Source: Adineta ricciae
Taxonomy: Eukaryota; Rotifera; Eurotatoria; Adinetida; Adinetidae
Direction: 5' to 3'
Length of the DNA stretch: 64,000 nucleotides
NCBI GenBank assembly: GCA_905250025.1
Contig: CAJNOJ010000002.1
Span: forward strand, 992,001-1,056,000
Shown: one piece after another, positions 6,306-53,639 of the stretch
Numbering within the stretch: position 1 is the first letter of the stretch
Layout of the letters: each line of letters starts with the position of its first letter
Program-made: the position numbers and the translations under genes
Notes under the pieces: generated by a model
The model's database searches: none
Told to the model about the DNA's origin: nothing
What the model saw: only the letters and a program-made list of their open reading frames with translations

Positions 6306-9097
6306 GGTGAAAACGGCGAATCGGCGCTCAAAAGCAAAGGTATGCGCAGAATAGAAGTTAAATATAATATATTTTATATGTATATATACTCAATTGCATC
6401 TGAAATGAATCGATGAACGTCTGGTAAAATCTGCGGGAAGTTGATCCTCAAGTGTGAAGCAGTAGAAAACGAGAGGAAAAGAAAGAATATATCCTATTTA
6501 TCATCGTCATCTTAGTAGGTAGTTAGAGCTAACGAATTGAATCCGTTGAACACCCAGAAGAATATCAATTCGAACATAAAGGACAAAAATGAGTGATTGA
6601 ATAGAGAACGAGGAGAAAAACCAACAGTGATTTTCTTTCTCTTTTCTCCTTCGCCTTCTTTTCCTCTTCTCTTTATTGTCCCTTTCATGCTGACTAGAAT
6701 ATTTGTTCACTAACTACAATAGGAAAGAAAGTAGATTACAAGTACAAGTCACACTAAACTAAACTATTCAGTTTTCTATTCCAACACAATCATTGAAATT
6801 TAAAGAAAATTTTTGTCTTTCATCCAACAGCTACTCCGATGTTCCTGTTTGATGGCGTACTTTTATTCTAATGAATTCATACAGTACGTCAAACACCAGT
6901 GTACTGAAAAGTAGAGGTCTGTAAAGCATACACCGTCGCTAATTCATCACTCTGCTGATGCAGTTATCTCGTCTAAGTATAAAGATTGAACGAATAAGAC
7001 AAAATTTATTATTCTATAGAGAGTATCACGTAGGATATTTTAAGGAATGCATATTCACTAATGACGTATTTACTAGTAGGAATAATTTCGCTGTTTTTTT
7101 TCTCAAGTATGAAAATGAATTTCTTTCTCTTCTTCTGTTTCTCCACAGTTGTTGTCCTTAACTGACAAATACTTCGTACGCAGCAATCCACTGTTTTTAG
7201 CTAACGGTAATCTGATGAAATGAGATCATACTGCTTGGAAAAGCTGCTTCAATTCTATTCTCATTCTTTCTTTTTTATCTCGATCTAGTAAATAAGTAGA
7301 AATGTTGAAAAAAAAAGTTCTAATACGCTTTTTCAGCAAGGCAAACTTTGCAAAAGAAAACACAAATATCTTCTCTATTCCTCTTTGTCAAGCATGCTAT
7401 TCTTCTCGCTAAACTCGCTTTTTCTCCTCGTTGTAAAAGTTTTATTTATTGTAGTCCATGAACGAGATTTCCGACTGCCATTATGGTCAAATATATCTGT
7501 TAAAGAAACAACATTCAGCACATGAACTAAACTGAACTAAAATCTGTCTCCTCGTCGGCAAATTGTCTCATTCAATACTTCTAATTACATCGAGGTAGAG
7601 TAGCTGAACAACGATGCATCGGACTTTTTCATTTTGTGGAACAAAAACACTATAATTATAACCTAAGGGTAATTAATCATTGGTCATGAAATCCCTAATG
7701 AAACACCGACGATGAAGTGTGCTTCTCGATCTTCTATGTTACAACTGATGAATATTTTTAAGCTGAAGATTAAAATGTACGCTAATATATCTGATATTCG
7801 CAAGCGGCGTCTTTTTAATTTATGTTGTTGTTGTTCATTTGGGGAGAACGGTTGACTATCTGTTTTTCATTCGACTTAGGTTCAAAACTTACAACACTAA
7901 TCTGCTACGGAACGACAGATGTCTGAAAATTTTGCGGCCTGCTTATTTTTTCATGCTGGATAATATTCTTAGAAATCATGTTGCACATCTTTGCGTATAT
8001 CTCCGTTCGGGAAGTCATGAATAAGATAACACTGCTCTTTTATAAACTATTCTGAGTAGGATACAAAAGCAATCACAATAATGACGGTAATAGTATTCGG
8101 TGTACCTATTTGCTAAATTTAAAATACAACCTCGACAACTAATAATGCTAATTAAGAGTCAGACAGATTATACAAGCCAAAAGAAGAGAGAAAAACAAAT
8201 GCATCGAACAATAGTTGACTAAAGATGGTAAGAATAGTTGATTCAATGAACTTGAGAACTTCTTGGCAATGAGATGCTTATATATTCCCTCGAAGAAGTG
8301 CTCTGTCAATAAAAGAAGTGCTGGAGCTAATATTATTCCGAAAACAAGTCTCATTAGTAAATTATGGAAACGGATTTCCTAACCTCAAGCGAATGATTTA
8401 CACACATAGAAATACGCACCTCAATATTAATCAAATCTAATGATTAGATATGGAATATAATTGTTGATAAACCATAAAACCTTGTCGATGAAATCGATGT
8501 ACGTGTCAGTGCGCAGCAGTCTCCTCTCATTCTTCTTCAGTTCATCGCAACTGAACGATCAATGTCAACCATGACTTCTATCAAACTAGAGCAAAATGCA
8601 TTTATTCCACTCAGGTTTGCCTCTTCATCAGTATTTTTCAAGTAATATATTGAACGTTGATGATGGTTTCAGATGAGAGAGATTTTTGACTTTGTCAATG
8701 ATGCACTGAGCAAAGCAAAAGCATTGAAAAGACGTAGTGAGGAAACATATTTGATAGAAAGGACCTATTATGTCACTGTGAAGTAGAAATGATAAAAGAA
8801 AGAATAAGCACATCCGCTCGTTTGTCAATATCTATCGTTGAGAAAAATATTGATGGAGAACTTCCTTTTCAAACAAAGACCGAACTATATAACTGAGTCT
8901 ATTCATATTTGATTGTCAGCTTTCGATGTTTTTTGCCTGAGCAAAAATCTAGAGATCTGGATAATATTCTACAGAATAATGTATTTTTCCTTTAGAAGAA
9001 AGAAAAAGGATGTCCTACAGAGAGGGGCATCTATCATTGCTGGTGATGCTGCGATTGACAGACAGAACGAAAGGAAAGAACAGAAAAAAAAGAGAGT
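6306..9097. other. Long noncoding stretch, GPCR upstream region
   Basis: About 2.8 kb hold no gene that I can support. All but the last 130 bp are also present in copy B (50,981-53,638), with many small indels and substitutions. Short open frames such as 6507-6710 and 8148-8354 on the minus strand are only loosely kept and change mostly at non-silent positions. The part beside the GPCR should hold its 5' UTR and promoter. Confidence 0.5.
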
Positions 9098-10261: not shown

Positions 10262-10668
10262 ATGTCAGAAGGACCTAAGCAACTTGGTGACAAGAAAACA
10301 GACGATCAACGACCAGAAGATCCATCCCATCCAGGCATGTCACCGGATCCAGCTGAACGTGGTAAACAACTTGGTCACGAAAATGCTCACGGTGGACAAT
10401 CTGTAGGCACGGGCGGTCATGGAGCCGGCAGCGGTGCTGGTATGTACTCTAGGACCTCGCGAGAAGTAATCACAAAACTCATTCATCTTTAATTTCTACA
10501 GGTAGTAACCAACCAGTCGGCGGGAAACATGTGTCAGATCCATCTCAATTTTCTCAAGAACAGCTACATCCAGGAATGAATCCTGATCCAGCTGAACGAG
10601 GAAGACAATTAGGACATGAGAATGCTCATGGCGGACACTCTGTTGGTACAGGTGGACATGGACAGTGA
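10262..10668 (+). CDS. Hydrophilin-like tandem-repeat protein
   Basis: Two exons (10262-10439 and 10502-10668, 61 bp intron) encode 114 residues. The protein is very hydrophilic, rich in Gly, His, Pro, Asp and Gln, and has no Cys or Trp and no hydrophobic segment. It consists of two copies of one module: HPGMsPDPAERGkQLGHENA followed by HGGqSVGTGGHG, roughly one per exon and joined at a Gly-rich linker. This composition (over 6 percent Gly, very low hydropathy) is that of hydrophilins and LEA-type proteins, which protect cells during drying. I do not recognise a named LEA group, so the role is inferred. The exon-module match suggests exon duplication. Confidence 0.7.
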
Positions 10669-11012: not shown

Positions 11013-11555
11013 CTACAATTCAACATCCTGTGGCGCTAGTTTCGACGGTGTATTCGAATCGGTTCCCAAGAAATACTTCTTGATAATCAAACTTAGAACA
11101 ACAGTAACAAGACCAGCGCCGATAAGAATAATTAATAAATATAATGGATGCCTCCAATAGGACCAATTTTTTGTTGGAAAAAAGCCAAAGTCAACAAAAA
11201 TAAAACTCATTATGGCAGGAATAACTTGCACGAATAGAATGCGAGGCGATGCAGTTATCACACCAACAATACCAGCCGTAAAGATAGCTGCCGAAAAGAA
11301 TAATAATATACTTCCATTGAGTTCTGCGAGACCCCATATTAAGCCAACGGCAAGAAGAAGATTATAAAAACCTTGATTAGCCGCCAAACCAGCATTCGCC
11401 TCGACAATCGACTGAGGTAGACGAAACACTTTGGCTGCTCGTTTTCGCCAAAGTATTGCTTCCAAAATGAAGATGTAAATGTGTATCAACGCTACCAAGC
11501 CACACAATACGCATCCTGTAATTGCTAGACCGGGAATTTCAGATTTGAGTGTCAT
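11013..11555 (-). CDS. DUF1304-family membrane protein
   Basis: This is a single uninterrupted frame starting at the ATG at 11555; an upstream GTG-led extension is unlikely to be used. The first 120 residues match the DUF1304 pattern: a first helix ending LVALIHIYIFILEAILW, then AKVFRLPQ, then ANQGFYNLLLAVGLIWGL, then two further helices. About 60 more residues follow with another hydrophobic helix (PLYLLIILIGAGLVTVVLSL) and a polar tail, so the protein (180 aa) is longer than the usual bacterial member. DUF1304 proteins are mainly bacterial and fungal and have no known function. The lack of introns, unlike nearly all neighbours, fits horizontal acquisition. The family call is from memory of its motifs. 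Confidence 0.75.
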   Translation of the reverse strand: MTLKSEIPGLAITGCVLCGLVALIHIYIFILEAILWRKRAAKVFRLPQSIVEANAGLAANQGFYNLLLAVGLIWGLAELNGSILLFFSAAIFTAGIVGVITASPRILFVQVIPAIMSFIFVDFGFFPTKNWSYWRHPLYLLIILIGAGLVTVVLSLIIKKYFLGTDSNTPSKLAPQDVEL

Positions 11556-12002
11556 ATTTTTATCCTTATGCACGCGTGTTTAAAAGCCAAAAAAAAAGTG
11601 AGATAACAAACTCTGTTTCTACGTGATATTTGTGATTAAAATATCGAGAAAAGAAAAACTTTTTACCGTGTTTATTGACATTGATACAGATATGTGGTGT
11701 AAGTACGCAGAAGGACATTTATAAAAGCTCGAAGTGTATGCTGTTGGTTGGGCGAGATTATGTCGATATCAATGACCGAATTACGTCCGCTAATTTCTTC
11801 TTATCAATTTCAAATAAGTGGGCACGTTTTGATATTATCAATAATTTTGAATCAATTATCGAACAGTCTGAGTTTGGTATAAGTCATCGAAAAGTGTTTT
11901 ATAGTGAACAAAAATGAAATTTCAATAACAACAGAAAGCAAAATTGCTTCTGTGTACTATTTATTTGTGGAAAGAAAAGAAGCTCGAATACAAATGACAT
12001 GT
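11556..12002. other. Intergenic interval
   Basis: About 450 bp lie between the DUF1304 gene and the hevein-type gene. Open frames here are short and featureless. No gene is seen. Confidence 0.4.
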
Positions 12003-31093: not shown

Positions 31094-32641
31094 TTATGAA
31101 AGTTCGCCAAGACAGCAATCAACTTTATGAAAAAATCGAATACGAGTTGGTCGTAAATTATCCAAGAGAAGACATACGATATGAACATGATAGTGTAAGA
31201 GAAACGGTAACGGGTCATCAAACGACCAGATTGCCTCTCTACCGTAGAATATTCTCTGTAATGATTGACAAACTTGATCACTTGACTGAATATTTCGAAT
31301 GATTCTCCATAATTCATGCGTTAACCAATAAGTTTCACGTGCTGTTGGCAATGGTATCATCGTCGTCTGAAAATCAGATGGGAAGTAAGCATCAGCAATA
31401 CGTGGATGATTATAAAATGCTGTAATTGCCGAATGAACACGTGGATTACATTCAATTCCATACGCTTTACCGTCATCATGGCTAACAATAAAATCAAACG
31501 ATGCATGACCAGTTAATTTCAATTCTCGAACATATGTTGTAGACCATTGCAAAATAGCTGGATGATCGATATGTTTATAATTTAATTGCCATGCTGACGA
31601 ATGACAGCAAGTAAATAATGCCAAATTCCCATTCAAGCATGTGCCATGTGTACAGTATTCATCACCTTGAATGAATTCTTGTAGAATATACGGACATTCT
31701 TCGCTGATGGGTAAACGATTGATATATTCAATTGTTTCGGCTCGTGTTGCTCGTGGTAATGTGATCATTGCTCCTCGATCAAGCCAATCGTACATGATAC
31801 TCTTGCAGATGTATGGACGCTTTTCTTGATCGAAATTAAAATCCATTAATTGACGTCGTGATGTGATATAATGAGATTTAGGCACGGGTAAACCCAATGA
31901 ACGAGCTTTGTCAGTAAATGAATACTTGTTATCTACAAGAGTTATTTCATCAGTATTCAGGTGAAATGTTGAACAATTGTGTTGTTTTAGACGAGCTTTG
32001 ACCTAGAAGAGGTGAATGTATGAAGGTGTTGGAGAACGAAAAGTAACTATTCCACGTGAACATACTTGTGCATCGATGTGAGCATGGTAAGGACCAGTGA
32101 CTGGTACGAACATATCAATATTTTCTTTTTGAACTATATCTACAAGTGATTGCATATATGCTTCGGGATCTTTTTCAGGTGACGGAACAATGTAAAATCG
32201 TTCGACAGAATTGGACCAACGATGACCTGTGAGCCAATTGATAGCTTCATCAACGAGAATAACTTTATGGCCAGCTCGATGAAATCCACGACATAAGACG
32301 AGTGCTTTTGTCATCATTCCGCCAGAGATAAGAATTCGTTTGCTAGAATGGTTTGGTTTTGGTGTTGACTCATTTTGTTTGAAAAGACGGATTAATTTTG
32401 AGCAAACTATTGTAAATATCGTAATTAATAAACTGAATGGAAAGAGAATCGCAAGTAAAAGAAGAATGCCAATGGTTCGAACATAATTGTTCAATGTATC
32501 AGATGGAATTTGTGTAGAATAAGCTATTGATTTTATAAGTTGACGATACCAAGGCCACGTTTGTTCAAAGCTATCGATCGATCGTTGTCTATGTTTTGCT
32601 GCATCAAAGGATTCAACTGCCTCTGGACTTAATTTTATCAT
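31094..32641 (-). CDS. mysC: ATP-grasp mycosporine-glycine ligase, MysC-like
   Basis: Two exons (32641-32066, 32002-31094; 63 bp intron) encode 494 residues. MysC joins glycine to 4-deoxygadusol with ATP to make mycosporine-glycine. The likeness to cyanobacterial MysC runs over the full length. An N-terminal hydrophobic helix (TIGILLLLAILFPFSLLITI) is followed by ILISGGMMTKALVLCRGFHR, AGHKVILVDEAINWLTGHRW and SNSVERFYIVPSPEKDPEAY. Next come VDNKYSFTDKARSLGLPVPK, YICKSIMYD (the ATP-grasp lysine region), ILQEFIQGDEYCTH, LTGHASFDFI and YGIECNPRVHSAITAFYNHP (metal-binding Glu/Asn). The C-terminus has IWSFDDPLPFLLHYH, also typical. It lies divergent to the MysA-like cyclase and next to an animal EGF gene. 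The intron argues against bacterial contamination. A two-base leader follows an acceptor-like TAG. Confidence 0.93.
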
Positions 32642-33598
32642 ATCTACGAAAAGCAGATGTGTTCATTGTCAAACAATCACATATAATATGCCTACTGTAC
32701 CGTTGCTCACCAGGCTCACAATTTTCTGCTTAATCAGATCTATGAATGGCACTCGGGAAAGAAACTTCATCTAAAATAAAGTCAATCTTATGATGTAAGA
32801 GAGAAAACTATGCATTTTTTAATCTTAGCTTCTCGCCCAACCTACTCTATGACTATCTAACTCATCATGTTTTTCGAACACGTGTTATACAGTGATTTTC
32901 AATCGAACCAACTCATACTTAGCACGTGCTTCTAAAAATTTCCAGTCTGCAGATAAGATTTGTTATTTTATCTTATTCGAAAAAGGCGAGAAATCCTGTC
33001 CGATCTTAAATGAGCCAAAGGCACGTTCGATTCTACTCGTTGATATCTATACAATATAGTACATTCTGTGGTCTATCGAGGGGACACAGAATAGATAAAA
33101 GGAAAATGTCTCCATCCGTTTTATCATCGAGTCTGCATACGTCACAAAATGCGTATAAATTTTTCGATTATGTAAGGTTAAAACTTGGACGGGGTGAAAG
33201 AGTGTAAAATCAATATACAAGCCTATTAATTGTAAATCTTGTATGTGTTAGAGTACAATGAATGCCCATCGATATGAACGCGATGGACTTTGACAGTGTG
33301 ATTGTGTTAACCAATATGCATGTATATATGGAAACTAAAATGGATATCTCTTCATAAATTTCTTGGATTTTCCTGTTTTAATGCTATGGCGAGATGTACT
33401 TTGAGTACGATTTTTTCTTGTCTAGCACGTCTGTGATTCGCTGAAGTATTTTCGATTACATAAGTACACCATCATCATTTTCTTTTCATTTTGATCTGCG
33501 AAATTTATTATATAATACCATCTCCTATTCGATTATGACCCCAGAATAGACCTGAAATCGGATTAAAGAGTAGAAAGCATAACTTCTCGGATCAGTTC

Positions 33599-33606
33599 TA
33601 TATAAG
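33599..33606 (+). promoter_or_regulatory. TATA box of mysA-like gene
   Basis: TATATAAG lies about 200 bp before the ATG at 33798. Once the 66 bp leader intron is removed, the predicted leader is about 100 bases. Confidence 0.6.
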
Positions 33607-33710
33607 AACCATCATTTGACTAGAACAACTCATTTCAAAGCGAAAGCAAACCTAGTGTGTTAGAAAAGCATCTTCATCTACTATTAATTCTTATTCTTCT
33701 ATTACATTAA

Positions 33711-33776
33711 GTAAGTCATTTATCTAGTCATCCATTGAAAGCTGAAAAATCATCCTTCGCGTCGTTGGCTTTTCAG
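33711..33776 (+). other. 5' UTR intron of mysA-like gene
   Basis: A consensus donor GTAAGT at 33711 and a TTTTCAG acceptor ending at 33776 bound 66 bp, the usual intron size here. Removing it excludes the in-frame extension upstream of 33798 and makes MSDMSATV the start. Confidence 0.65.
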
Positions 33777-33797
33777 ATCTCTTTTGATTGTTCAAAC

Positions 33798-35221
33798 ATG
33801 TCGGATATGTCAGCAACTGTTTCATCCACAACAAATGGATTCCATATTGAAGGTTATGAAAAAATTACCTACGATTTTCGTTTCATCGACAACATCTTCG
33901 ATCCAAAACACCACGATCTTGCCGATTGTTATCATTCATGGGGCCGATGTTTGGTTGTCATCGATGATAACGTGTACAAAATGTACGGTCAAGCATTGGA
34001 AAACTATTTCACCGTGCACAACATTAAATGTACAGTCAAAGTCATCCAAGGTGGCGAATTACGCAAAACAATGAAGACAAAATTAGAAATCCTAGATACA
34101 TTCGCCGAATTTGGCCTTGTTCGTAAAGAACCAGTCTTGGTCATTGGCGGTGGTGTCTTAACAGATGTGGCTGGCTATGCATGTGCATCCTATCGACGTA
34201 CATCCAATTTCATTCGTATACCAACGACATTGATCGGCTTAATCGATGCTAGTGTATCGATCAAGGTCGGTCTCAACCATGGCAAACTTAAAAATCGACT
34301 TGGCGCATATCATGCACCATTGATCACATTTCTTGATTTTTCATTCTTGAAAACTTTGTCCCAAGGACATATTCGCAACGGATTTGCTGAATTAGTCAAA
34401 ATTTCAACAGTCGCCGAAAAAACCGTCTTCGATTTACTCGACAAATATGGTGAAGAATTAATTTCAACACATTTCGGTTATTTAGATGGCGCCTCCGAAG
34501 AAGTTCGCAAGGCTGCTAAACAAATCAATTATATTGGCATCAAAAAGATGCTCGAACTCGAGTAAGATCCTTGCCAAATCGATCAAGATCAGCCATTCAT
34601 TTGCTTCTTCGTTGTAGGGTACCAAATCTCCATGAAATCATGCTTGACCGTGTTATTGCTTTCGGACATACATGGTCACCAACACTTGAACTTACACCAC
34701 CCATTCCACTTCGTCATGGTCACGCCATCAACATCGACATGGCTTTTTCAGTCACCGTCGCATGGAAACGAGGTTTGATCACCATAGAAGAACGTGATCG
34801 TATCCTTCGTTTAATGTCACGCGTTGGCCTTACACTTGATCATGAACTGTTCACCATAGATTTAATCTGGAAAGCAACCAAATCGATTATGTTAACACGT
34901 GATGGTCATCAACGTGCAGCTATGCCCAATCCAATCGGTACATGTACATTCGTGAATGATTTAACCTATGAAGAACTCGAACAAGACTTAAAAGAACACA
35001 AAGCACTCGTTAAAAACTATCCACGCGCTGGTGCCGGTGTCGACGCATATATTGATCAAAGTGATTATATGGAAATACACGATGGTGATAACATGGTCCT
35101 AACAAAAGCATTAAATGGAGAATTACTCGTTGAAGCTGTCTCTTCAACGTTATCTTCATCATTAGGAATGAACTTGAAAACCATCGCAGCAGAGAAAGCT
35201 TATCGTTCAGCCATCATGTGA
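33798..35221 (+). CDS. mysA: Sugar-phosphate cyclase, MysA/DDGS-like (dehydroquinate synthase fold)
   Basis: Two exons (33798-34561, 34618-35221) encode 455 residues. The protein belongs to the dehydroquinate-synthase superfamily of sugar-phosphate cyclases. The NAD-binding part has [15 protein letters not shown] and [50 protein letters not shown] and [10 protein letters not shown] (metal-binding Glu) follow. The second exon has [17 protein letters not shown] and [15 protein letters not shown], with the two metal-binding His. [10 protein letters not shown] and LRHGHA separate it from true dehydroquinate synthases and match EEVS/DDGS-type enzymes acting on sedoheptulose-7-phosphate. Beside a MysC-like gene, the DDGS activity (making desmethyl-4-deoxygadusol) is the best call; EEVS, as in gadusol-making fish, is the alternative. 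An upstream leader intron sets the start. Confidence 0.9.
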
Positions 35222-35561
35222 ACAAGTTTATCTGTTGCCGTGACGAACAAACATATAAGGGACATTGGGTGTCATATGATCATCAGGTTCGATACTCTTT
35301 GTCTATTTTATTCATGCTCTTTCTTCAACATTTCAAAAGAGAATTTTCCTTATATTTCGTCCAAGCAATGGATGTTTGTTAATGTTATATTTAGTACTTT
35401 TCCTTTTTTTTGATGTTCTAGTAGTTTTTCGTTGATAAATCTGCCTTTCGTTTTGTTTTTTTTAAACAATAAACAAACTGATTTTATCAGAATCATAGTA
35501 TTTCACATGTTTTGTTTGAAATCTTTTCAGATAAGAAAAAAAAAAGAGAATCAGAACACAA
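35222..35561. other. Intergenic interval mysA-mysB
   Basis: These 340 bp contain the 3' UTR of the cyclase, with AATAAA at about 35,468, and the short promoter of the methyltransferase. The poly-A signal suggests separate transcripts rather than one operon-like message. No gene is seen. Confidence 0.4.
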
Positions 35562-36354
35562 ATGACAAATTTAGTGGATATCAAATCCCATCTATCAAAT
35601 GATCCAATCGATCACTATATCATGGATCATACTTTTCGGCCAACAGCTGAACAAAACGAATTGATCGAATATACTCGATCTTTACCAGGTAAAATCTCCT
35701 ATATATATATACACTTTCATGAACAACAATCTCATATTCTAGAAAAATTCGCACTGATGATCGGCTCGGCTGATGCTGCTCAATTCTTTCAAATGTTAAT
35801 TCGAGTTAGTCATTTCAAGCGTTGTATTGAAGTCGGCACACTTTCAGGTTACACATCCATGAGCATGGCGTTAGCGGTTCCTGATGATGGGCTAGTAGTT
35901 ACCTTAGATATTGATGATAAATATGTTCGACGTGATATATGGGAAAAGGCTGGTGTTGCAAAGAAATTGGATTTACGGATCAAGCCCGCATTAGATACGT
36001 TGAATGAGTTATTAGAACAGTATGGAGAAAATAGCTTCGATTTTATTTTTATTGATGGTGATAAGGTTGGTTCATTTGTAGTTTGATCTATCGTGTATAT
36101 ATATAAATGCTTACTTCTACTTCTTTTAGCCGAATTATGTTAACTATTATGATTTATGTCTTCGTCTAGTACGTCCTAATGGTCTCATTGCAATAGATAA
36201 TACAATTTATACAGGTTTTGTCGCTGATCCAAGCAAAAATGATATCAATACAATAACCATTCGACAGTTGAATGATAAAATCAAACTCGATCAAACAGTG
36301 GATGTGTGCCAATTACGTCTTGGTGATGGCACAACATTCGTACGAAAGAAATAG
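35562..36354 (+). CDS. mysB: Class I SAM-dependent O-methyltransferase in the MysB role
   Basis: Three exons (35562-35688, 35743-36065, 36130-36354) encode 224 residues of the caffeoyl-CoA-type O-methyltransferase family. Motif I is RCIEVGTLSGYTSMSMALAV. Next are VVTLDIDDKYVRR (acidic residue for the SAM ribose) and DFIFIDGDKPNYVNYYDLCL (metal-binding Asp, with the family's ID-x-DK-x2-Y). LVRPNGLIAIDNTIYTG and a closing LRLGDGTTFVRKK follow. MysB converts desmethyl-4-deoxygadusol to 4-deoxygadusol by this chemistry. The general family is certain. The mycosporine role rests on its place between the cyclase and the transporter, since related enzymes in animals methylate catechols. Confidence 0.85.
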
Positions 36355-36760: not shown

Positions 36761-38649
36761 ATGCGTTTTTCATTGCGTTGCTCATTACATCGATTATTTC
36801 ATTCACATTTAGTTGAAATCATTATGTGTCTACAAGTAAGTATCACCTCGAGCTCCCCTATTCCAGTTAAACTTACATTAAAGAAATCTTTTTTTCTGTT
36901 TAGACACTTTATTACTATTTAGCTTCATCTATCGGTCAATACATTTATAACTACTATTTGACTACTTACAACCCATCAGCTGTTGGCTCATTTCAAACGT
37001 TAGAATCAGTGAGTGGAATGACAACGTCACTGTCGTATAATAAGGAATTTAATCAATGTAAACATCGATCCAGTTCGGCACCAGCTCAACAATGGGCCCA
37101 ACAACAATCTTCAAATTTATTCTTCTATCAAACTGTAGCCGCAAGTGCTCCAACAATTGCGATGACTTACATCTTAGGATTGTATACACATCAATTGGGA
37201 AGGAAATTTGTACTCATTCTTACAATGTTCGGGAATGTCCTTCAATACGTAATTTGGTTGTTTACGATACACTATCGAGTAGGTTTTTGAAGACAAAATT
37301 GTGCCTGAATCGATTGTTCCTCATTTTGTTAGTTGCCTGATTATTGGTGGTATATCGCTGCATTTGTATCTAGTTTAGTCGGCGGTGGTAACGTGTCTGG
37401 TTTTATTCTGAACTTGATCATTACAGATAGCACGGAAGAATCCGAAAGAACATCGAAATTTCTTTACATTGGTGTTGTATGTACAGCCGTTGGTGCTTTT
37501 ATTTCACTCGTGATCGGATTCTGGATTGAATATCGTGGTTTTATCGATCTCTACTGGACAGCATTATTTCTTCAGTTACTAACAATATTCATTGTTTATC
37601 GTTATATGAAATCGGACTCGTTTGTACCTGTTCTGTCGAATAATTCCTCTCATTATAAGAAGAAGATCGACAGTAAATGTAGTCAGTTAATAGAGATATG
37701 TACAGTATTCACTCCACGTCATACATATCGGTCAAGAAAACGATCGCTTAGTTTGATCATTACGCTGATAGCGTTTATTTTTCATATTCTTGCATCTTTA
37801 GCATTCAGTGTGCCATTCCTGTGGTTTCAACTCAACTATCCATTCTGTTGGTCAGGTAAATACAGTGCTTTAATTCTATCGACAAACTCAAAGGTTTTGA
37901 GAGTACTCTGTGAACCTTGAAAGATAAGCGAGAAAGAACGATATCGAGATATGCATATTTATTCCAATTACTTCCATTCATCGAGTGCTTTTTATCAATA
38001 GACTTGCATGCAAATTTGACCCTATTCGCAAATTTATCGTTTTTCTTTAGCGAAAGAAATCGGATATTACAATACGGTATCATCAATTATTTGGTGCATC
38101 GGTAGTGTTGTTGGTTTGAAGTTTTTAACTTATACACGTTATAGCGATGCTGTTATTTGTTGCATATCCCATATATTTTTCGTTATGTCAGCATTATGGA
38201 CGTCTCAAGCGTACTATAATTGGCAATTATATGCGGGGTTACTAATATCACCATTTACATCCTATCAAGGATCGTTGACATACTCGATCATATCAAAATG
38301 GTTAGAACCCAGCGAAATCAATAGTGCTTATACATTCATAACGGAGATTAGTACAATTTTAAATGTGTTTGGTAATTCGTTTTTTAATTATTTATATTCT
38401 GTTACAGTTAGTCGTTCGAGAAATTTTCTAATTCTTGTCGCAGCCGGTCTTGGATTGATTCCGTTAGTTTTGAACTGTTTCTTATATTTTGTAACAAAAA
38501 ATCTGCCTGACAATAGTGATAATCGCATCACTGAGTGTAAACCAATTCTGATACCTGATCATATGCCAATCCGAGTGCCTGTAGGAACAGATACGATTCT
38601 TTTGCCAGCCTCGACAGGGAGGAAATTCGATCTACATCAGATGAGTTGA
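36761..38649 (+). CDS. Major facilitator, SLC46-like
   Basis: The first exon (36761-36835) starts MRFSLRCSLHRLFHSHLVEI. The protein has about 12 helices. After TM1 there is a polar extracellular loop and QQQSSNLFFYQTVAASAPTI. Then comes the MFS loop motif LYTHQLGRKFVLILTMFGN, corresponding to G-x3-D-x2-GRK, and GGGNVSGFILNLIITD in TM4-5. The middle loop is basic and the second half ends with a long polar tail (FDLHQMS). This layout fits the SLC46 group (proton-coupled folate transporter and relatives), which moves small organic anions and nucleoside-like compounds. It follows the methyltransferase on the same strand, so carrying the mycosporine product or a precursor is possible but only inferred from position. 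Confidence 0.75.
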
Positions 38650-45087: not shown

Positions 45088-45791
45088 ATGAGCTCCATCG
45101 ACAATCAGAAGATATCCGTGGTTGAAGGCATGCAAAAAAGCGGAATGCCCTATGTTCGACTGGGCAATACCGGTTTACAAGTGTCTCGAATCTGTTTGGG
45201 CATGATGTCGTACGGCACACCAAAATGGCGTGAATGGGTTCTTGAAGAGAAAGAAGCACGACCATTTGTTAAACGCGCATTGGAGCTCGGAATCAATTTT
45301 TTTGATACTGCGGATATGGTTAGAAATGAATAATTGAAAAAGGAAAAACCAGTTAATTAGTTGACATATTTTTGATTATTTTAGTACTCAGCTGGTGTGA
45401 GTGAAGAAGTTACAGGGCGAGCTTTGAATGACATGGCTATTCGAGAAGAGATCGTCGTTGCCACGAAAGTATTTCATCAAGTAGCCGATGGTCCGAATCG
45501 AAAAGGTCTTAGTCGAAAGCACATTTTCGCCGCATGTGAAGCCAGCTTGAAACGCTTGAATATGGATTACATCGATCTCTATCAAATTCATCGATTCGAC
45601 AAAGAAACACCTATTGGTAAGGAGAACAATACAGGAATAATCGAAATTCATACGTGTTTTCGTAGAAGAAACAATGGAAGCATTGAACGACTTAGTTCGC
45701 TCAGGCAAAGTACGTGTGCATTTCGATGAATCCCTCTTTTAATAATGAAAAATAGGTTCGCTATATCGGCGCATCTTCAATGTACGCATGG
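45088..45791 (+). CDS. Aldo/keto reductase, N-terminal half (gene split by assembly)
   Basis: Exons from 45088 encode the first half of an NADPH-dependent aldo/keto reductase. MPYVRLGNTGLQVSRICLGM begins the barrel, LGINFFDTADMYSAGVSEEV holds the catalytic Asp and Tyr, and EEIVVATKVFH holds the catalytic Lys. YIDLYQIHRFDKETPI holds the catalytic His, and VRYIGASSMYAW ends it. The next base is an n at 45,792, after which the sequence switches to an unrelated coiled-coil gene. The missing piece, about 20-25 residues (normally ending in a QNHYN-like motif), should follow directly. The second half is at 53,666-54,110. The sequence is closest in style to bacterial, fungal and plant AKRs such as YajO; introns are short and host-like. 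Confidence 0.88.
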
Positions 45792-45792
45792 N
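45792..45792. other. Single n: left assembly junction
   Basis: An undetermined base sits exactly where the reductase coding sequence stops and copy B of the duplicated block begins. It marks a joined gap. Confidence 0.9.
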
Positions 45793-47423
45793 TAATCAAT
45801 ATTAATCGACGACTGGATACAATTGAACATTCTCAACGAGAAGCCGAAGGAAACATTCATGCAATAAATAACAATCTAGGAGATATTGTCACACGACATA
45901 CAGCTACAGATGCGCGTGTACAACAAAATGAAGATAAAATCAAAGGCGGTGCTCAAGCAGTTCGCGATCTTACAACTCGTGTTTCATCGTTGCCTACTAC
46001 TGATGATATTGCTGCTGTTCGACGTGATCTCAATGAAAAAGTATGTTGCTGTACTATTGCGCGTCTTGCTTGGCTTATGCATCTGTATTCTCTCAGATTC
46101 GTAATGATCTTCAAAAATCTATTCAACAACATGATGAAATTACATCTCAGACTTTCGCGAAACATGAACAACGTGTCAATAGTTTACGTGTTGATTTGAA
46201 TCTTTTGGAAGAACAAATGACGCAACGTATGAACAATGTAAGTGAGATGAGACATCCGTTAGCTTTGGCAGCAGAATTCAATGTGCTTTGAATATCTTCT
46301 GTAATCGATTTGAGATTTAAATAGAATAAATCTTTTATTTTAGACTGAACAACAACTTTCCAATCAAATGCGAGACAAACAAACTGATCTTGATATGTGG
46401 CGGCGAGATGTCGATCAAAAGATGGTTCGTTTAATGAACTTGAGAGAAACCATGCCACAAGAGGTAAGTACAGCCAAAGAAGAAAAACGAGCATCTGTCG
46501 AAATGTAATACAAATCTAGATATTCAATCTGAATGAGAAAATCGCAACCACACGACAAGAATGTATGAAGTTTTGTCAAGAAGAACACTTTCGAATGTAA
46601 ACTAGAACATCGATCTTCATATTATGCCATTATTTGATACATTGTCGGTGAAATTTAGGAAAAGTGATATGGAACGAAATACTCGAAAAGATCATGGTCT
46701 CACTCAACGATCTGTACCTATCGTGCCGGCGAGTAAACCTACACCACGGGATGACGATTATGATGATGACAGTGATTATGTACGTATGAAAAATTCCATA
46801 GCAAGTTGATTTCTTTCATAATCATCCGAAATTTTGTTTCTATAGAAAAAGAAATTAAAAAATGACGTTGAAGAGGTATTTATTTCATATCCACTTCTTT
46901 TCGTGTTATTCTTTCGTTTTGTCTATAGAAAAAAGAAAAAGAAAAAGAAAAAGATGAAACTGAGGAGGTATACTAAATTCTATTTGCATGAATTCCTCTT
47001 TTCTCATACACGCTATGCATGTTTTTATTTCATAATCAGTACTATTGTATTAGTTTAAGTGAATCGCGGAAAGTACATTTGCGTTTTCTCTTCTTTCATA
47101 ACGAATAATCACAGAATTCAGAGATTAGATCATTACAAACTCACAGTTAATCCTGGATTGGTTATCTTTCCTATCACTCTGACCGGATTCTGTACAATAT
47201 ATGTTATAAGTTCAACGAGTTGTCATTTCCAAAGCTTGAAATCGATCAACTATGTTGTCTGTGAATTGTGACCATGAATTCTTCTCCTGTTATACTCATT
47301 GTTTCGAAATTGAATGAAGAATTCTTTCTGCATTGCTTTTATTTTGCTTTCTAGCGTCTTCCGCCATCACTGCCAAGACAAGCATCGAATATTAATAAAA
47401 ATGACGATGATCCATATTATTAG
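45793..47423 (+). CDS. Coiled-coil protein, 5'-truncated second copy (copy B)
   Basis: This repeats the part of the coiled-coil gene from 1073 to 2706, beginning mid-exon at ININRRLDTIEHSQREAEGN and ending DDDPYY with TAG at 47421-47423. Exon borders and splice sites are the same as in copy A, and most changes in exons are silent. The 5' half is absent only because the block starts at the n at 45,792. In the assembled sequence the frame reads on from the reductase, which is an artefact. Confidence 0.8.
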
Positions 47424-48083
47424 TTAACACACTCTTTTTATCCATCGAATGATTCTCTATGAATGGTAATATCTCACCTTAGTATTCTCCTCTTCGTTGA
47501 TAGAATAAATAGTTCATTTTCATATCTTTGTTTTTTCTAGGTTTGTGTCAATGAATTATGTTTAAAGACATGGCTCATTCGGACGAATAAACACTTATCT
47601 GTAGATAATTTTTCCTACATATCTAGTTTTTTGAAGATTTGTTTTTCCTTATTTTTATTTTTATATTGTCCGGTGTTTGACAATGACCGTCTAATGAAAC
47701 GATTTTCCTACAGTCTATTTACATGCACTCAACATATAAATGCATCTGAGAAAAAAAATCATGCTGATCAATTCATTTGGATATCTCTTCTTCGTACTCC
47801 ATCTATGAGTGTTGATTTATTTTGTTCTTTGAATATGAGTATATTTTCGTCCTCCATGAAGTATGTTGGACACGGTCACATGCACACCGTACATTTCGTC
47901 AATATTTTTCGATTCGTTCTGTTCTTACATCGAAAAGAAGCGATCATTTTAACAGGTTATACTCTCAACTATTTCGCTTCACTCGATTGCTTGCTGTTAA
48001 TGTAAGAAATCACCGCGACGTTTTGTCATTTTCATATTTTAAGAGTTTATTTTAAGAACGCACTTTCTATCTAATTTAGTTTG

Positions 48084-48525
48084 ATGATGAATTCATTTAT
48101 AACTACTGTCAGTGGACTTCTAATAACTTATTTAACAGTACTGACAACTAGTTAGTAATTTCTCCTTGTTAATAATCATTTCTTTCATGGTATGAATTTG
48201 TAGTAATTTATGGCGAAAGTATCCATGGTGTACCACTGACAAAAGATGAAGCTACTGCTTTAACACGTGATAAATTTGGCCGTGTCGAACCTGATTCTTT
48301 GATGAACGGATTTTTTCCTGTTTGGGCAGTTATTCAATTGATACTTGGAGGTTAGTCTTTCTTTCAATGCTCAGAAGAAACGTACTCATGACGTTTTTAG
48401 GTATATTCATCGTTGTTTTTCTTCTCGGCGTTCTCTGCTATTGTTTGGGATTTCGAGAAAAGAAGCCCGAACCAGTAACGGATGGAGAAGACCAAACAAA
48501 AGAGAACTTGTATACAAAAAAATAA
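48084..48525 (+). CDS. Small type I membrane protein (copy B)
   Basis: Same three-exon gene as at 3370-3811. The signal peptide reads MMNSFITTVSGLLITYLTVL, the outer part has GVPLTKDEATALTRDKFG, and the membrane helix (IFIVVFLLGVLCYCLG) is unchanged. Compared with copy A there are about nine amino-acid changes in 112 residues, mostly outside the membrane helix, and no break. Preservation of frame and splice sites in two diverged copies is the main support for this being a gene. Confidence 0.65.
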
Positions 48526-49159
48526 GCAATTGATTCTATGTAAAGTTTCAGTTATTATCCGTTGCAGAAATATGCCGACTAATCTTATTAGTATAATAAT
48601 TCCTATTTGCCTGTCTTAGATTTTTGTTTACTAACGAATAAAAGATAATCTGCATTTTGCTCGATGTCATTTTCCGACGTACTCGAGCGTTAATAAAGGT
48701 ACGGAAGATCCTGAAACATCCAGAAAAGAAGATTACAAACGAATGGCGAATGATTTCTGCTTGTGACAAAGGTTTTATATGAAGAAGAAGAATGAATAAA
48801 CATTGCAACGTATTATGATTATTCGAAATACAACTCATATCCGTCTACTGGTCCACTTTGACGCGATAGATACTTGAAAAAGGACTTTCTGACAAACTGA
48901 ATACGATCATTCACTTGATTTATTAGTTCGAACAGTACTGAAAACGTCAAAGATATATATTATGCGTTTGCCTTTTGAAAAAAAAAAACAATAACCAAAA
49001 ATACATGTGTTGCTTTTGTACAATTCAATGGATACATCATTTTTGTATACAAACTTATCTATCATCGACGTGTCTGTGAGAAAGAAAGAATTCTTTTTCT
49101 TTCTGTTTTTGTTTTAGTGGTAATTTAGTAATATAACGTTTATATAGAAATCTAATAAA

Positions 49160-50980
49160 TCATTTATTTCGTTGCATGTCAGCAATAAGAGACGCTAACC
49201 GACGTCGTCGTCTCGTAATCCTTAAAAACAGTCTTCTATACGCGTCACGGAATTTTGGCTGAATAAATGGATAGAGAATTGGATTGACAGTTGAATTGAG
49301 CCATAAAAGCCAAAATACAGCTGAATATAATTGTCCATTTGTATCGGTTAAGATTTCTAATGAAAATATACTTCCAGCAACAACAACAACAACATAAGGT
49401 AATAAGAAGATCATGAATACAAGAACAAGAATGAGAAGTGATGTGGCAGCACGTTTATCTCGTCTTAAACGGCGAACGGTGCGTTGTTCGCCGCTATTCA
49501 TTGTTCCATTGCGTTTCGATAGTCGAAATGAATTATGACGCCATGTAAATATCGGATTCGATTCTCGGTCGTTTCGTTGTACTTGTCGACGTAGTGTTTG
49601 CGTTGATTTGGTTGTTCGAGAGCCGGGCGCCGTTGGCGAAGACGAAGGTAAAAGAGCTCTTTTGATACGAGTGTAAAGCTTCGATGACGATGATCTCCTT
49701 TCGACATTAACCGATGTGACAACATCGATGGGCTGGGATTTAACGACTTCTTCTTCGACTAAAAGTTCTTCTACCTCCTTGATCACCGATGGTATAGTAC
49801 CAACCGGATGCTCGCGTATATGGACCTATGAAGATGAAAATTGTTAGTGGTAAATGAAAGATTATGGAAGCAAAATGCACATTAACAGTCTTATCGACTT
49901 TTGTCTATTTTAATGTGGATTAGATGTTTTTCTTCGAAAGTCAGTTATCTTCTTCTTATCAGTTTCATCAGAAAGAAAAAGATATAGATTTTCAATTAAG
50001 AAGTATATTTTTATCATCCGATGAACAACAAGCTAATGAATCTTTTTCTCTATGGAATTAGATGTGTACTTGATACACTCATTCGAGAGATTTTCTTCGA
50101 TTAATCTATGATATAAATTACCTCGGTGTCAGTTTTGTTCAATGTTTGATAATTATGTTCGTTACTATTCGATAGCGTTCCTTCGTCGTTTTCGATTGTT
50201 TGTTCTTGTTTCTCGGCTTTATCTTTAACTTTTCGTGAGCCATTCGGTTTGCGTTTGTCCGTCGTACTATTTGCGGTTGGAAACCGTTGCGATCGATGAT
50301 AGAGACTAACAATAATTAACGCATTGAGAATAAGAATAACAACTAACGGCCATGCAAAAAAATTGATTTGAGCAATAATTAAATAAACAGCGTGCGAATG
50401 GTATGCACCGATACACTCTAGATTGGTTTTTTTCGTTATGTTTGCTGCAGGAGCCGTGTCAATGTGATCAAGTAACCATATGCCCGGTGCGAAATTAATC
50501 AAAGGAATAAACCAAATCAGAATTGAAAATATTCTAATTCGAGTCTTTGTTGTATGACGACGATAATGAACACTATGATTAATACTCCAATAACGCTCGA
50601 TAGTTATGGCCACAATTGATAATACGCTTGCCATTGTTGCGACATCGTCGATAGTCAACCAGATTTTACAGAAAAGTTCACCAAATGGCCAATAACCTCG
50701 TATTTGAGCAAATCTAAATGAGTTTTATGAGAAAACGTGTCAGTTCGTCATTGAGTCTTATTCATATAACTTACGAATGGAATGGCATAGCTATGAGGCC
50801 AACGAGTAAATCAGCAATTGCCATGGATAAAAGAAAATTATTTGATGGCGTCAATAAATGTGGATCATTGTAGAAAGCAAAAAGAACAACGAGATTTCCT
50901 CCGATTGTTAATATAATAATTGAAATGATGAAAAAACAAACAGATACAACTTCAAATGATAATGTAGAAATCGTCATCAT
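49160..50980 (-). CDS. Class A GPCR, biogenic-amine-receptor-like (copy B)
   Basis: Same three-exon gene as at 4451-6305, starting at the ATG at 50980. TM1-TM3, the Asp3.32 segment (IDDVATMAS), the ERY motif, TM6 (FLLPY) and TM7 (NSTVNPILYPF) are unchanged. Differences cluster in the long third intracellular loop, which has a few small in-frame deletions (for example three to four residues lost near KAEKQEQT and one in the DVVTSVNV region). The last 105 residues are identical in protein and almost identical in DNA. It reads as a functional allele. Confidence 0.85.
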
Positions 50981-53638
50981 CGCGAAAACGGCGAATCGGT
51001 CCTCAAGAATATAAATAAAGGTATGCGCAGAATAGAAGTTAAGTACAATATATTTTATATGGATATATACTCAATTGCATCTGAAATGAATCGATGAACG
51101 TCTGGTAAAATCTGTGGGAAGTTGATCCCCAAATGTGGAGTAGTAGAAAAGGAGAGGAAAAGGAAGAATATATCCTATTTATCATCGTCATCTTAGTAGG
51201 TGGTTAGAGCTAATGAATTGAATCCGTTGAACACCCAAAAGAATATCAGTTCGAACATAAAGGACAAAAATGAGTGATTGAATAGAGAATGAGAAGGAAA
51301 ACCAACAGTGATTTTCTTTCTCTTTTCTCTTTCGCCTTCTTTTCCTCTTCTCTTTATTGTCCCTTTCATGTTGACTAGAATATTTGTTCACTAACTACAA
51401 TAGGAAAAAAGTAGATTACAAATACAAGTCACATTAAACTAAACGAGAACATAAACTATTCAGTTTTGTATCCCGACAAAAACAATCGAAATCTAAATAA
51501 AACTTTTCTCTTCTATCCAGCAGCTGCTCCGATGCTCATGTTTGGTGGCGTACTTTTACTCTAATGAATATATAAAGGACGTCAAGCAGCAATGTACTGA
51601 AAAGTGGAGGTCTGTAAAGCATACATCGTTACTAATTCATTACTCTGTTGATGCAGTTATCTCGTCTACATATAAAGACTGAACGAATTAGACAAAATTT
51701 ATTATTCTATGGGGAGTATCACGTAGGATATTTCCAGAGATACATATTTCCTAATGACTTATTTAATAGTAAAAATAATTTTGCTGTTTTTCTTTCTCAA
51801 CTATGAAAATGAATTTGTTTCTCCACATATGTTGTCCTTAACTGACAGATACCTCGTACACAGCAATCCACTGTTTTTAGCTAGCAGTCATCTGATGACA
51901 TAAGATAATACTGCTTGAAAAAGCTGCTCTAATTCTGTTTTCATTCTTTCTTTTTTCTCAATTTAGTAAATAAGTAGAGATGTTGAAAAAATTCTAATAC
52001 TCATTTTCAGCAAGGAAAACTTTGCAAAAGAAAATACAAATATCTTCTCTATTCCTCTTTGCTAAGCATGCTATTCTCCTTGCTCAACTTATTTTTTCTT
52101 CTCGTTGAAAAAGTTTTATTTATTGTAGTCTATGAACGAGATTTCCGACTGCCATTATGGTCAAATATATATTTAAGAAACAACATTCAGCACATGAACT
52201 CAAGTGAAATCTGTCCCCTCACCGGCAAATAGTCTCATTCAAGACTCCTAATTACATCGAGGTAGTATAGCTGAACAAAGATGCATCGGACTTTTTCATT
52301 TTGTGGCATAAAAAGACTATAATTATAACCTAAGGGTAATTAATCATTGGTCATGAAATCCCTAATGAAACACAGACGATGAAGTGAAGTTCTCGATCTT
52401 CTATGTTACAACTGATAGATATTTTTAAACTGAAGATTAGAATGTACGCTAATATATCTGATATTCGCAAGCGGCGTCTTTTCAATTTATGTTGTTGTCG
52501 TTCATTTGGGGAGGGGGTGATCGTTGACTATCTGTTTTTCATTCGACTTACGTTCAAAACTTGCAACGCTAATCTGCTGCAGACTGACAGATGTCTGAAA
52601 CTTTTGCGACCTGTTTATTTTTCATGCTGAATAATATTCTTAGAAGTCATGTTGCACGTCTTTGCATAGATCTCCGTTCGGAAAGTCATGAATAAGATAA
52701 CACTGCCCTTTTACATACTATTCTAAGTAGGATGCAAAGCAATCACAATAATGAAGATAATAGTATTCGATGTACCTATTTACTAAATTTAAAACACGAG
52801 CTCGACAACTAATAATGCTAATTAAGAGTCAGAGAGATTATACAACCAAAACGAAGAGAGAGAAAAACAAATGCATCGAGCAGTAGTTGACTACGGATGA
52901 TGAGAATAGTTGATTCAATGAACTTGAGAACTTCTTGGCAATGAGATGCTTATATATTCCCTGGAAGAAGTGCTTTGTCAATAAAAGAAGTGCTGGAGCT
53001 AATATTATTCCGAAAACAAGTTTCATTAGTAAATTATGGAAGCGGATTTCCTAACCTCAAGCGAATGATCTACAGATGTAGAAATTCACACCTCAATATT
53101 AATCAAATCTAATGATTAGATATGGAAAATAATTGTTGACAAAGCATAAAACCTTGTCGATGAAATCAGTGTACGTGTCAGTGCGCAGCGTTCTCCTCTC
53201 CATCTTCTACGGTTCATCTCAACTAAACGATCAATGTCAATCATGACTTCTATTAAAATAGAGTAAAATGCATTTATTCCACTCAGGTTTGCCTTTTCAT
53301 CAGTACTTTCCAAGTAGTGTATTGAACGTTGATGACGGTTTCAGACGAGAGAGATTTTTGACTTTGCCAATGATGCACTGAGTAAAGCAAAAGCATTCAA
53401 AAGACGTAGTGAGGAAACATATTTGATAGAAAGGACCTATTATGTCACTGTGAAGTTGAAATGATAAAAGAAAGAATAAGCACATCCGCTCGTTTGTCAA
53501 TATCTATCGTTGAGAAAAATATTGATGGAGAACTTCCTTTTCAAACAAAGACCGAACTATATAACTGAGTCTATTCATATTTGATTGTCAGCTTTCGATG
53601 TTTTTTGCCTGAGCAAAAATCTAGAGATCTGGATAATA
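50981..53638. other. Noncoding part of copy B
   Basis: Counterpart of 6306-8966, with many small indels relative to it. No gene is seen. It lacks the tRNA-Val because the block ends about 130 bp before that point. Confidence 0.5.
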
Positions 53639-53639
53639 N
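53639..53639. other. Single n: right assembly junction
   Basis: Copy B stops at 53,638 in the middle of a sequence that continues in copy A. The following 26 bases are the end of a reductase intron (TTTCTTTCAG). Confidence 0.9.

Follow-up and report, generated by a model that had tools for sequence, protein, structure and literature searches.

Three adjacent genes of the rotifer Adineta ricciae, situated in a 64-kb stretch of DNA that was analysed as a whole (the window), are predicted to encode a MysC-type ATP-grasp ligase, a DDGS-type cyclase, and a class I O-methyltransferase (OMT; Table 1). In the gene models all three reading frames are free of stop codons after removal of the GT-AG introns, and the family matches are far above chance (the cyclase matches 5TPR at E 9e-159, the ligase matches NF005315 at E 2e-109, and the OMT matches PF01596 at E 3e-56). 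An initial annotation had described three adjacent genes, each with one or two short introns of host size, and both statements held: the genes are intact, intron-bearing and located in gap-free sequence, with one intron in the cyclase gene, two in the ligase gene (one of them probable), and two in the OMT gene. The OMT gene follows the cyclase gene on the same strand at a distance of 0.3 kb. The stretch between the divergent ligase and cyclase genes presumably holds the promoters of both.

Table 1. Features of the three-gene locus, in window positions
Feature	Position	Strand	Remarks
MysC-type ATP-grasp ligase gene	31094..32770	-	518 aa; full-length
Ligase exons	32770-32701 (probable first exon), 32643-32066, 32002-31094	-	gene model
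Ligase introns		-	63 bp and a probable 57 bp
Ligase N-terminal hydrophobic segment	about residues 81-99		
Ligase-cyclase intergenic stretch	32771..33797		about 1 kb; genes divergent; from gene models
Possible 5'-UTR intron, cyclase gene	33711..33776	+	GTAAGT...TTTTCAG; by-eye reading
DDGS-type cyclase gene	33798..35221	+	455 aa
Cyclase exons	33798-34561, 34618-35221	+	single intron, 56 bp
Class I O-methyltransferase (PF01596) gene	35562..36354	+	224 aa
OMT exons	35562-35688, 35743-36065, 36130-36354	+	introns 54 and 64 bp

Genomic setting

Reading from the left, the window shows no undetermined base until position 45792. Within the same gap-free stretch as the cluster, genes for a rhodopsin-type GPCR, an ABC transporter, and a nucleoside transporter lie to the left and a mitochondrial carrier gene lies 2.5 kb to the right, all with firm family matches. 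The nearest left neighbour, about 0.2 kb away, is a putative EGF gene (Pfam match of 21.0 bits, below the cut-off of 22.1), and the nearest right neighbour, 0.4 kb away, is an intron-bearing membrane-protein gene without a Pfam match. Of the flanking genes named in the initial annotation the SLC25-type carrier is firmly placed, whereas the EGF protein stays below threshold and the SLC46 carrier lacks a family match. The GC content and GC3 of the cluster are host-like. The window has a GC content of 35.2% and most introns seen measure 54-68 bp; published values are 35.6% GC for Adineta ricciae and, for four bdelloids, median intron lengths of 55-67 bp (PMC5916493). Both measures are in keeping with a bdelloid.

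The three genes thus show what is expected of animal nuclear genes, being split by spliceosomal introns and situated among genes of animal type. Because the introns are of host size and the cluster is linked to an animal chromosome, it is neither a contamination nor a chimera; the initial annotation had likewise argued against bacterial contamination. The window does contain an assembly scar, with single Ns at 45792 and 53639 flanking a 92% copy of 1073-8966, but this scar is more than 9 kb away from the cluster. Together with the host-like GC and GC3 and the gap-free connection to the GPCR gene, other animal-type genes, and the mitochondrial carrier gene, this makes a contaminant or an assembly chimera extremely improbable. 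Two tandem copies of TGTGGG were looked for in the window as a telomere sign, and none were found. The sole match of an Rfam search was one tRNA.

The cyclase and the ligase

The cyclase is 60% identical to 5TPR. In the 40 plasmid records listed (of 112) its identity is 61% with a Nostoc DDGS, drops to 34-38% with annotated sedoheptulose-7-phosphate cyclases, and is lower still, 25-29%, with DHQS-type proteins. In the tree it groups with 37 DDGS rows (5TPR and the rows of 36 of the 80 cyanobacterial loci) at 100/100, apart from EEVS and DHQS. It keeps 134 of the 147 columns that are invariant in 79 DDGS. At 23 columns discriminating these 79 DDGS from four EEVS-type rows, which were derived here and are not the published 14-residue fingerprint, 21 residues are DDGS-type, one is an EEVS residue, and one is neither. 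Constraining the cyclase to group with the four EEVS-type rows was rejected (p-AU 0.003). By its sequence the cyclase is therefore a DDGS, as the earlier MysA/DDGS-type call had it. A true dehydroquinate synthase is discarded by the low identity in the listed plasmid records and by the tree, and an EEVS/gadusol cyclase by the discriminating columns and the constraint test. The four EEVS-type rows did not form one clade but were split in the DDGS tree. A scan of viral contigs for DDGS gave 163 pattern stretches with no relative among them.

Where long matches were obtained, the ligase shares 44-51% identity with MysC of the cyanobacterial DDGS loci, a range that excludes the short or broken matches L016, L031, L051, and L058; with nine other ATP-grasps found on plasmids it shares at most 27%. 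It groups with 38 MysC rows (taken from 78 long ones) at 100/100 against four other ATP-grasps, which rules out an unrelated ATP-grasp enzyme. Of the near-invariant MysC columns 109 of 136 are kept, the homology reaches the C-terminus in the alignment, and an N-terminal membrane segment is common to the ligase and cyanobacterial MysC (hydropathy maximum of 2.79 versus 2.1-2.8 in 38 MysC). With NF005315, a model matched by MysC proteins, the ligase scores 365.9 bits, under the curated cut-off of 406, and five cyanobacterial MysC score 526-571 bits. The Pfam ATP-grasp family PF02655, on which the ATP-grasp label of the ligase is based, is matched at 20.4 bits and so misses the cut-off of 23.2, and searches of solved structures (PDB) with the single sequence and with a 10-row profile gave no match. 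Since the NF005315 cut-off is missed although the tree places the ligase in MysC, we grade it on sequence as a divergent member of the MysC family, and the MysC-type call stands.

The 80 cyanobacterial DDGS loci used for comparison are the best 80 of 146 relatives from a genome scan. As the scan patterns were built from the rotifer and Anabaena cyclase pair and only these 80 were kept, non-cyanobacterial DDGS are under-sampled. No tree contains cnidarian, algal, dinoflagellate, or fungal proteins. In the stretches around these best 80 of 146, a matching OMT lies beside DDGS in 74 loci, a matching ligase in 70, and a mysD-like ORF, labelled by eye, in 39. When 1,158 ORFs of at least 120 aa from the 80 loci were compared with the 64-kb window (tblastn, E 1e-6), no MysD-like gene was found; the ORFs matched only the three cluster genes and an ABC gene.

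DDGS and MysC are of cyanobacterial type and very probably reached the rotifer lineage by gene transfer, directly or via another eukaryote. Support for the rotifer DDGS lying outside the cyanobacterial rows is only 50/88, and a position of the rotifer MysC outside the cyanobacterial rows was not rejected (p-AU 0.228). A eukaryotic donor could be the source of the introns, as an alternative to intron gain after transfer.

The O-methyltransferase

The third protein matches PF01596 at 190.5 bits (cut-off 22) and contains EVGTLSGYTSMSMA, FIDGDK, and AIDN, which we take to be the SAM/metal motifs of class I OMTs. It had been called MysB-type, and this part of the initial annotation is not supported. 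In the last tree (50 rows), in which the bootstrap had not settled, 28 MysB form a 100/100 branch without the rotifer OMT. The enzyme carries 4 of 46 MysB-diagnostic columns versus 10 of 18 ordinary-OMT columns, and it scores 229 bits with the ordinary-OMT profile versus 120 bits with the MysB profile. Ordinary OMTs, which trained one of the profiles, reach 139-171 bits with the MysB profile, above the rotifer value, so that the profile test partly reflects divergence. Two rows outside the training sets scored 183 ordinary and 111 MysB (L085) and 159 ordinary and 172 MysB (L111); both were left out of the profiles, the diagnostic columns, and the last tree. The best identity is 44% to ordinary class I OMTs versus 29-35% (tblastn) to MysB, and identities of 38-46% were found to matches above 130 bits in 59 cyanobacterial genomes, which were not typed one by one. 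The rotifer OMT is also short, with 224 aa versus mostly 264-315 aa in MysB, whose starts were chosen mechanically. No second OMT resembling it was found in the stretches around the 80 cyanobacterial loci.

The OMT trees, built with 28 of 74 MysB rows, place the rotifer enzyme at positions that shift with row sampling. In two trees (94/73, and 95/78 in the last) it pairs with a sorghum enzyme, a pairing flagged as long branches meeting; a second tree was made without L085, L111, and the sorghum row. The sequence comparisons suggest that the OMT is likely a functional replacement of MysB, although a position on the MysB stem is compatible with the trees. The cluster, earlier described as complete, has its DDGS and MysC, and would be complete through this probable replacement.

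Proposed pathway and comparison with known systems

In the pathway proposed here the cyclase would convert sedoheptulose-7-phosphate to desmethyl-4-deoxygadusol, the neighbouring OMT, probably as MysB replacement, would methylate this to 4-deoxygadusol, and the MysC-type ligase would use ATP to form a mycosporine from 4-deoxygadusol and an amino acid, glycine being the likeliest. That DDGS uses SH7P and that a methyltransferase yields 4-deoxygadusol is described in PMC4426668. This reading builds on the family identities of the cyclase and the ligase and on the OMT gene adjoining the DDGS gene on the same strand, as in the cyanobacterial loci, and we consider it probable that an animal nuclear cluster of DDGS, replacement OMT, and MysC ligase makes mycosporine. 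As the OMT is unlike MysB, the middle step is deduced from position and family. We further infer the substrate of the OMT, the amino acid used by the ligase, expression of the genes, and protection from UV, oxidation, or drying as their role.

The OMT could instead be a very divergent MysB or a free form of the methyltransferase that is fused to DDGS in eukaryotes, in which case all three genes would have been transferred as one cluster. This would bear on the origin alone and agrees with the proposed function. Forcing the OMT to the MysB side gave a tree slightly better, by 1.67 log units, with 50 rows (p-AU 0.535), and with three long rows dropped it took this side unforced (82/65); the eukaryotic fused DDGS-OMT proteins described in PMC9298759 are absent from the OMT trees. 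Against this, the 44-row tree rejected the MysB side (p-AU 0.032), and both the diagnostic columns and the higher identity to the non-typed cyanobacterial matches than to MysB point away from it, so we regard this origin as unlikely. Somewhat less likely still is that cyclase and ligase act as proposed while the OMT adjoins them without belonging to the pathway or works on another substrate, another enzyme methylating the intermediate or an unmethylated analogue being made. The features separating the OMT from MysB would fit, and as the genes are densely packed the adjacency to the cyclase is by itself a weak argument; yet the gene next to the cyclase does code for an O-methyltransferase, shares its strand, and follows it as in 74 of the 80 cyanobacterial loci. 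Finally, the transferred cluster might be silent or beginning to decay, its genes intact-looking but unused. A single copy was seen, but about 1,200 codons are stop-free, every intron has GT-AG, the family motifs are kept, and a neutral cluster of an age at which introns and GC3 are host-like should by now show decay, which leaves this quite improbable.

Returning to the proposed mycosporine pathway, rotifers are listed among the MAA-containing zooplankton groups in a 2020 review (PMC7073964), which names Keratella, Polyarthra, and Asplanchna. According to this review self-production of MAAs had not been shown in zooplankton, and it therefore treats only diet and symbionts; the usual crediting of rotifer MAAs to these sources counts against self-synthesis. 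The three genera are not bdelloids. Mycosporine genes in rotifers were unreported among the matches listed in our literature search. A linked, intron-bearing DDGS-OMT-MysC set makes self-synthesis in a rotifer directly testable. MAAs are reported to protect desert Nostoc against drying (PMC13131328), and the cluster is therefore a concrete chemical candidate for animal drying tolerance. We tentatively suggest, at somewhat less than even confidence, that a drought-proof rotifer synthesises mycosporine itself with transferred DDGS and MysC of cyanobacterial type and a recruited non-MysB methyltransferase, as sunscreen, antioxidant, and drying protectant. If so, self-made mycosporine would account for some of the MAAs that have long been credited to rotifer diet, and if the OMT does replace MysB, a bacterial-type pathway would have been completed within an animal genome.

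With the cyanobacterial mys cluster (mysA-mysB-mysC, often with mysD or NRPS; Anabaena/Nostoc) the rotifer locus shares the DDGS and MysC families, the N-terminal membrane segment of MysC, and the order of cyclase and OMT gene. It differs in the divergent ligase, the spliceosomal introns, an OMT that does not join the MysB branch sampled here, and the lack of a mysD-like gene in the window. Anthozoans (coral, sea anemone) are likewise described as animals with a DDGS-based gene set (PMC4426668, PMC6001144, PMC3640398). Compared by description only, they have a predicted DDGS-OMT fusion and a four-step pathway (PMC9298759, PMC4426668), whereas in the rotifer cyclase and OMT are separate and no fourth gene was seen in the window. 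Dinoflagellate and red-algal MAA clusters are eukaryotic and nuclear and belong to the same pathway. The vertebrate gadusol pathway (EEVS and MT-Ox) also makes a sunscreen from SH7P in animals, but the rotifer locus has DDGS instead of EEVS and a ligase in addition, and its 224-aa class I OMT is too short for the oxidoreductase domain of MT-Ox. The mosaic MAA cluster of green algae, as described in PMC7826186, is likewise eukaryotic and combines a MysC-like ligase with a non-MysB O-methyltransferase, with EEVS and MT-Ox in place of DDGS; its extra OMT is given there as kin of uncharacterised cyanobacterial cluster proteins.

Gene models and animal setting

The cluster consists of three genes at 31.1–36.4 kb of the window, in which undetermined bases begin only at 45.8 kb. 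All three genes read through once GT-AG introns are removed. These introns are 54–64 bp long, confirming that the cluster genes carry spliceosomal introns of host size, as the initial annotation had stated. The introns of the adjoining membrane-protein gene measure 68, 54, and about 195 bp. In the window as a whole the GC content is 35.2%, and the introns identified are mostly 54–68 bp long. Both values are consistent with Adineta ricciae, for which the accessible text of PMC5916493 gives 35.6% GC and a median intron of 55 bp. The GC content of the cluster genes (0.37–0.41) overlaps with that of seven other reading frames of the window (0.35–0.42), and the same holds for third-position GC (0.27–0.36 and 0.26–0.35, respectively).

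The window contains two copies of a rhodopsin-type GPCR, the closest PDB entries being adrenergic and histamine receptors, and genes for a dynamin, a mitochondrial carrier, and a nucleoside transporter; from this gene content we conclude that it is animal DNA. Of the animal flanking genes proposed originally, the mitochondrial carrier was recovered and the GPCR and other families were added, whereas the EGF match was below threshold and the membrane protein named SLC46 had no Pfam match. These two immediate neighbours are therefore weaker witnesses. The membrane protein could be a transporter tied to the cluster; no counterpart of its gene was found in the fetched cyanobacterial loci.

Features of the window and their positions
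Feature	Position	Strand	Remarks
MysC-type ligase	31094–32770	minus	518 aa including a short, probable first exon; 494 aa when counted from the exon-2 methionine
Possible 5'-UTR intron	33711–33776		GTAAGT...TTTTCAG, directly upstream of the cyclase start codon
Cyclase	33798–35221	plus	455 aa
Cyclase C-terminal tail	35051–35218		extends about 55 residues farther than the aligned Anabaena DDGS
O-methyltransferase (OMT)	35562–36354	plus	224 aa
Membrane protein	36761–38649	plus	about 523 aa; 0.4 kb after the OMT
DUF1304 membrane protein	11013–11579	minus	102.5 bits
Direct repeat	10328–10662		two 96-bp copies, 78% identical
Inserted stretch	45792–53639		single N at each end; 92% identical over 7.9 kb to 1073–8966
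Aldo/keto reductase halves	45385–45729, 53637–54110		gene interrupted by the inserted stretch

The inserted stretch appears to be an assembly artefact, in which a gap was closed with a related copy.

Identity of the cyclase and the ligase

The best relative of the cyclase with a solved structure was 5TPR (E 9e-159, 60% identity), which we take to be the desmethyl-4-deoxygadusol-forming cyclase (DDGS) of Anabaena variabilis, labelled a dehydroquinate synthase in the structure listing. It was followed by ValA (4P53, E 5e-75), a sugar-phosphate cyclase of the EEVS type, and then by dehydroquinate synthases (DHQS). The best 80 of 146 genome relatives were all cyanobacterial (57–63% identity). Among the 40 plasmid records listed out of 112, identity was 61% to a Nostoc DDGS, 34–38% to annotated sedoheptulose-7-phosphate cyclases, and 25–29% to DHQS-type proteins. 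In a tree of 44 rows the cyclase grouped with 37 DDGS (support 100/100) instead of among the true dehydroquinate synthases, and its union with the four EEVS-type rows was rejected (p-AU 0.003). At the 23 columns separating 79 DDGS from these four rows, it carries the DDGS residue 21 times, the EEVS residue once, and neither once. Of the columns invariant in DDGS 134/147 are kept, and E198, H272, and H288, presumably the metal ligands, are conserved. Judged by its sequence the cyclase is a DDGS, in agreement with the initial annotation.

The ligase is 44–51% identical to the MysC proteins of the cyanobacterial loci over long matches, compared with at most 27% for nine other ATP-grasps found on plasmids. 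A 43-row tree united it with 38 MysC rows (100/100) and not with unrelated ATP-grasps. Cyanobacterial MysC proteins have an N-terminal hydrophobic segment, e.g. QNLGTLALLAIAFPFN, whose counterpart in the ligase is RTIGILLLLAILFPFS, and the homology extends to the final residues. The proposed MysC assignment is thus upheld at the sequence level. Since the ligase reaches only 365.9 bits with NCBIfam NF005315 (cut-off 406), whereas five cyanobacterial MysC exceed this cut-off (526–571 bits), we regard it as a divergent member. Its ATP-grasp label is based on a sub-threshold Pfam match and on the literature. NF005315 (PRK06849) is titled 'hypothetical protein' and scored above its cut-off in all five scanned MysC of cyanobacterial mys loci; it could be renamed.

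Affiliation of the O-methyltransferase

In three cyanobacterial genomes with a MysB, recognised by its position beside MysC, the OMT was matched best by other O-methyltransferases (157–165 bits, versus 82–95 bits for the three MysB). A sample of 59 genomes from the class of a Calothrix gave an OMT match in 42; the best eight of these tblastn matches, fetched and aligned, were 39–44% identical to the OMT as opposed to 29–35% for MysB. The OMT scored 229 bits with a profile of 13 ordinary OMTs and 120 bits with a profile of 74 MysB, a gap partly reflecting divergence, as ordinary OMTs reach 139–171 bits with the MysB profile. The diagnostic columns are of the MysB type in 4/46 cases and of the ordinary-OMT type in 10/18.

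The trees were less uniform. With 50 rows, 28 MysB formed a 100/100 branch with the OMT outside, and the tree joining the OMT to MysB was better than the free tree by 1.67 log units (p-AU 0.535). This union was rejected with 44 rows (p-AU 0.032) and was the free result once three long rows were dropped (82/65). The pairing of the OMT with a sorghum enzyme is apparent only, long branches being joined. Taken together, the OMT is unlike MysB in sequence and is probably not the cyanobacterial methyltransferase, and the label 'MysB-type' is not supported. The gene may have been recruited from the animal itself or transferred separately, or it may be a cluster OMT that has diverged very strongly. 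The OMT is no nearer to 2AVD, presumably human COMTD1 (135 bits), than to the top-scoring bacterial OMT with a solved structure (170 bits).

Origin, novelty, and proposed pathway

The cluster is real, intact, animal-borne, and of the mycosporine type, with DDGS and MysC firmly assigned. Gene transfer has very probably occurred at some stage. In trees of prokaryotic relatives only, neither the DDGS (50/88) nor the MysC (p-AU 0.228) was firmly placed inside or outside the cyanobacteria. The introns could predate the transfer if the donor was eukaryotic. Published animal examples, as far as the accessible text goes, are anthozoans (PMC4426668, PMC6001144, PMC3640398). None of the matches listed from the open-access literature reported mys genes for rotifers; that some gene list already mentions them is quite possible. 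The matching passages of papers on bdelloids or on mycosporine-like amino acids (MAAs), PMC12559811, PMC5916493, PMC11258130, PMC3499245, PMC4632278, and PMC7826186, found with differing search words, mention no such rotifer genes. A 2020 review on zooplankton (PMC7073964) states that rotifers contain MAAs and that no zooplankton had been shown to produce them. The cluster represents a known pathway in a new form and in an unexpected host, and is readily testable.

An OMT match lies downstream of DDGS, in the same orientation, in 74 of the 80 cyanobacterial DDGS loci, and a ligase match occurs within the fetched stretch of 70; a second OMT of the window's type was found in none of these stretches. 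The order cyclase–OMT is common to these loci and the window, whereas the window's ligase is inverted. As outlined in parts of PMC4426668, DDGS converts sedoheptulose-7-phosphate to desmethyl-4-deoxygadusol and a methyltransferase then gives 4-deoxygadusol, to which MysC attaches an amino acid (PMC7826186, in part). The window's cyclase would catalyse the first of these steps, the OMT would methylate desmethyl-4-deoxygadusol to 4-deoxygadusol, and the ligase would add an amino acid, probably glycine. A pathway with all three activities would be expected to end in a mycosporine. We infer the OMT substrate, the use of glycine, the expression of the genes, and their biological role. A MysD-like enzyme did not come to light in the window, where 1,158 cyanobacterial ORFs, among them a family present in 39 loci and taken by eye for mysD, matched only the three cluster genes and an ABC transporter.

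A further methyltransferase-like gene, by eye of a type unlike the window's OMT, follows MysC in the Microcoleus mys locus L062 (11524–12582). Extra O-methyltransferases adjoining cyanobacterial mys genes are described in a section of PMC7826186.
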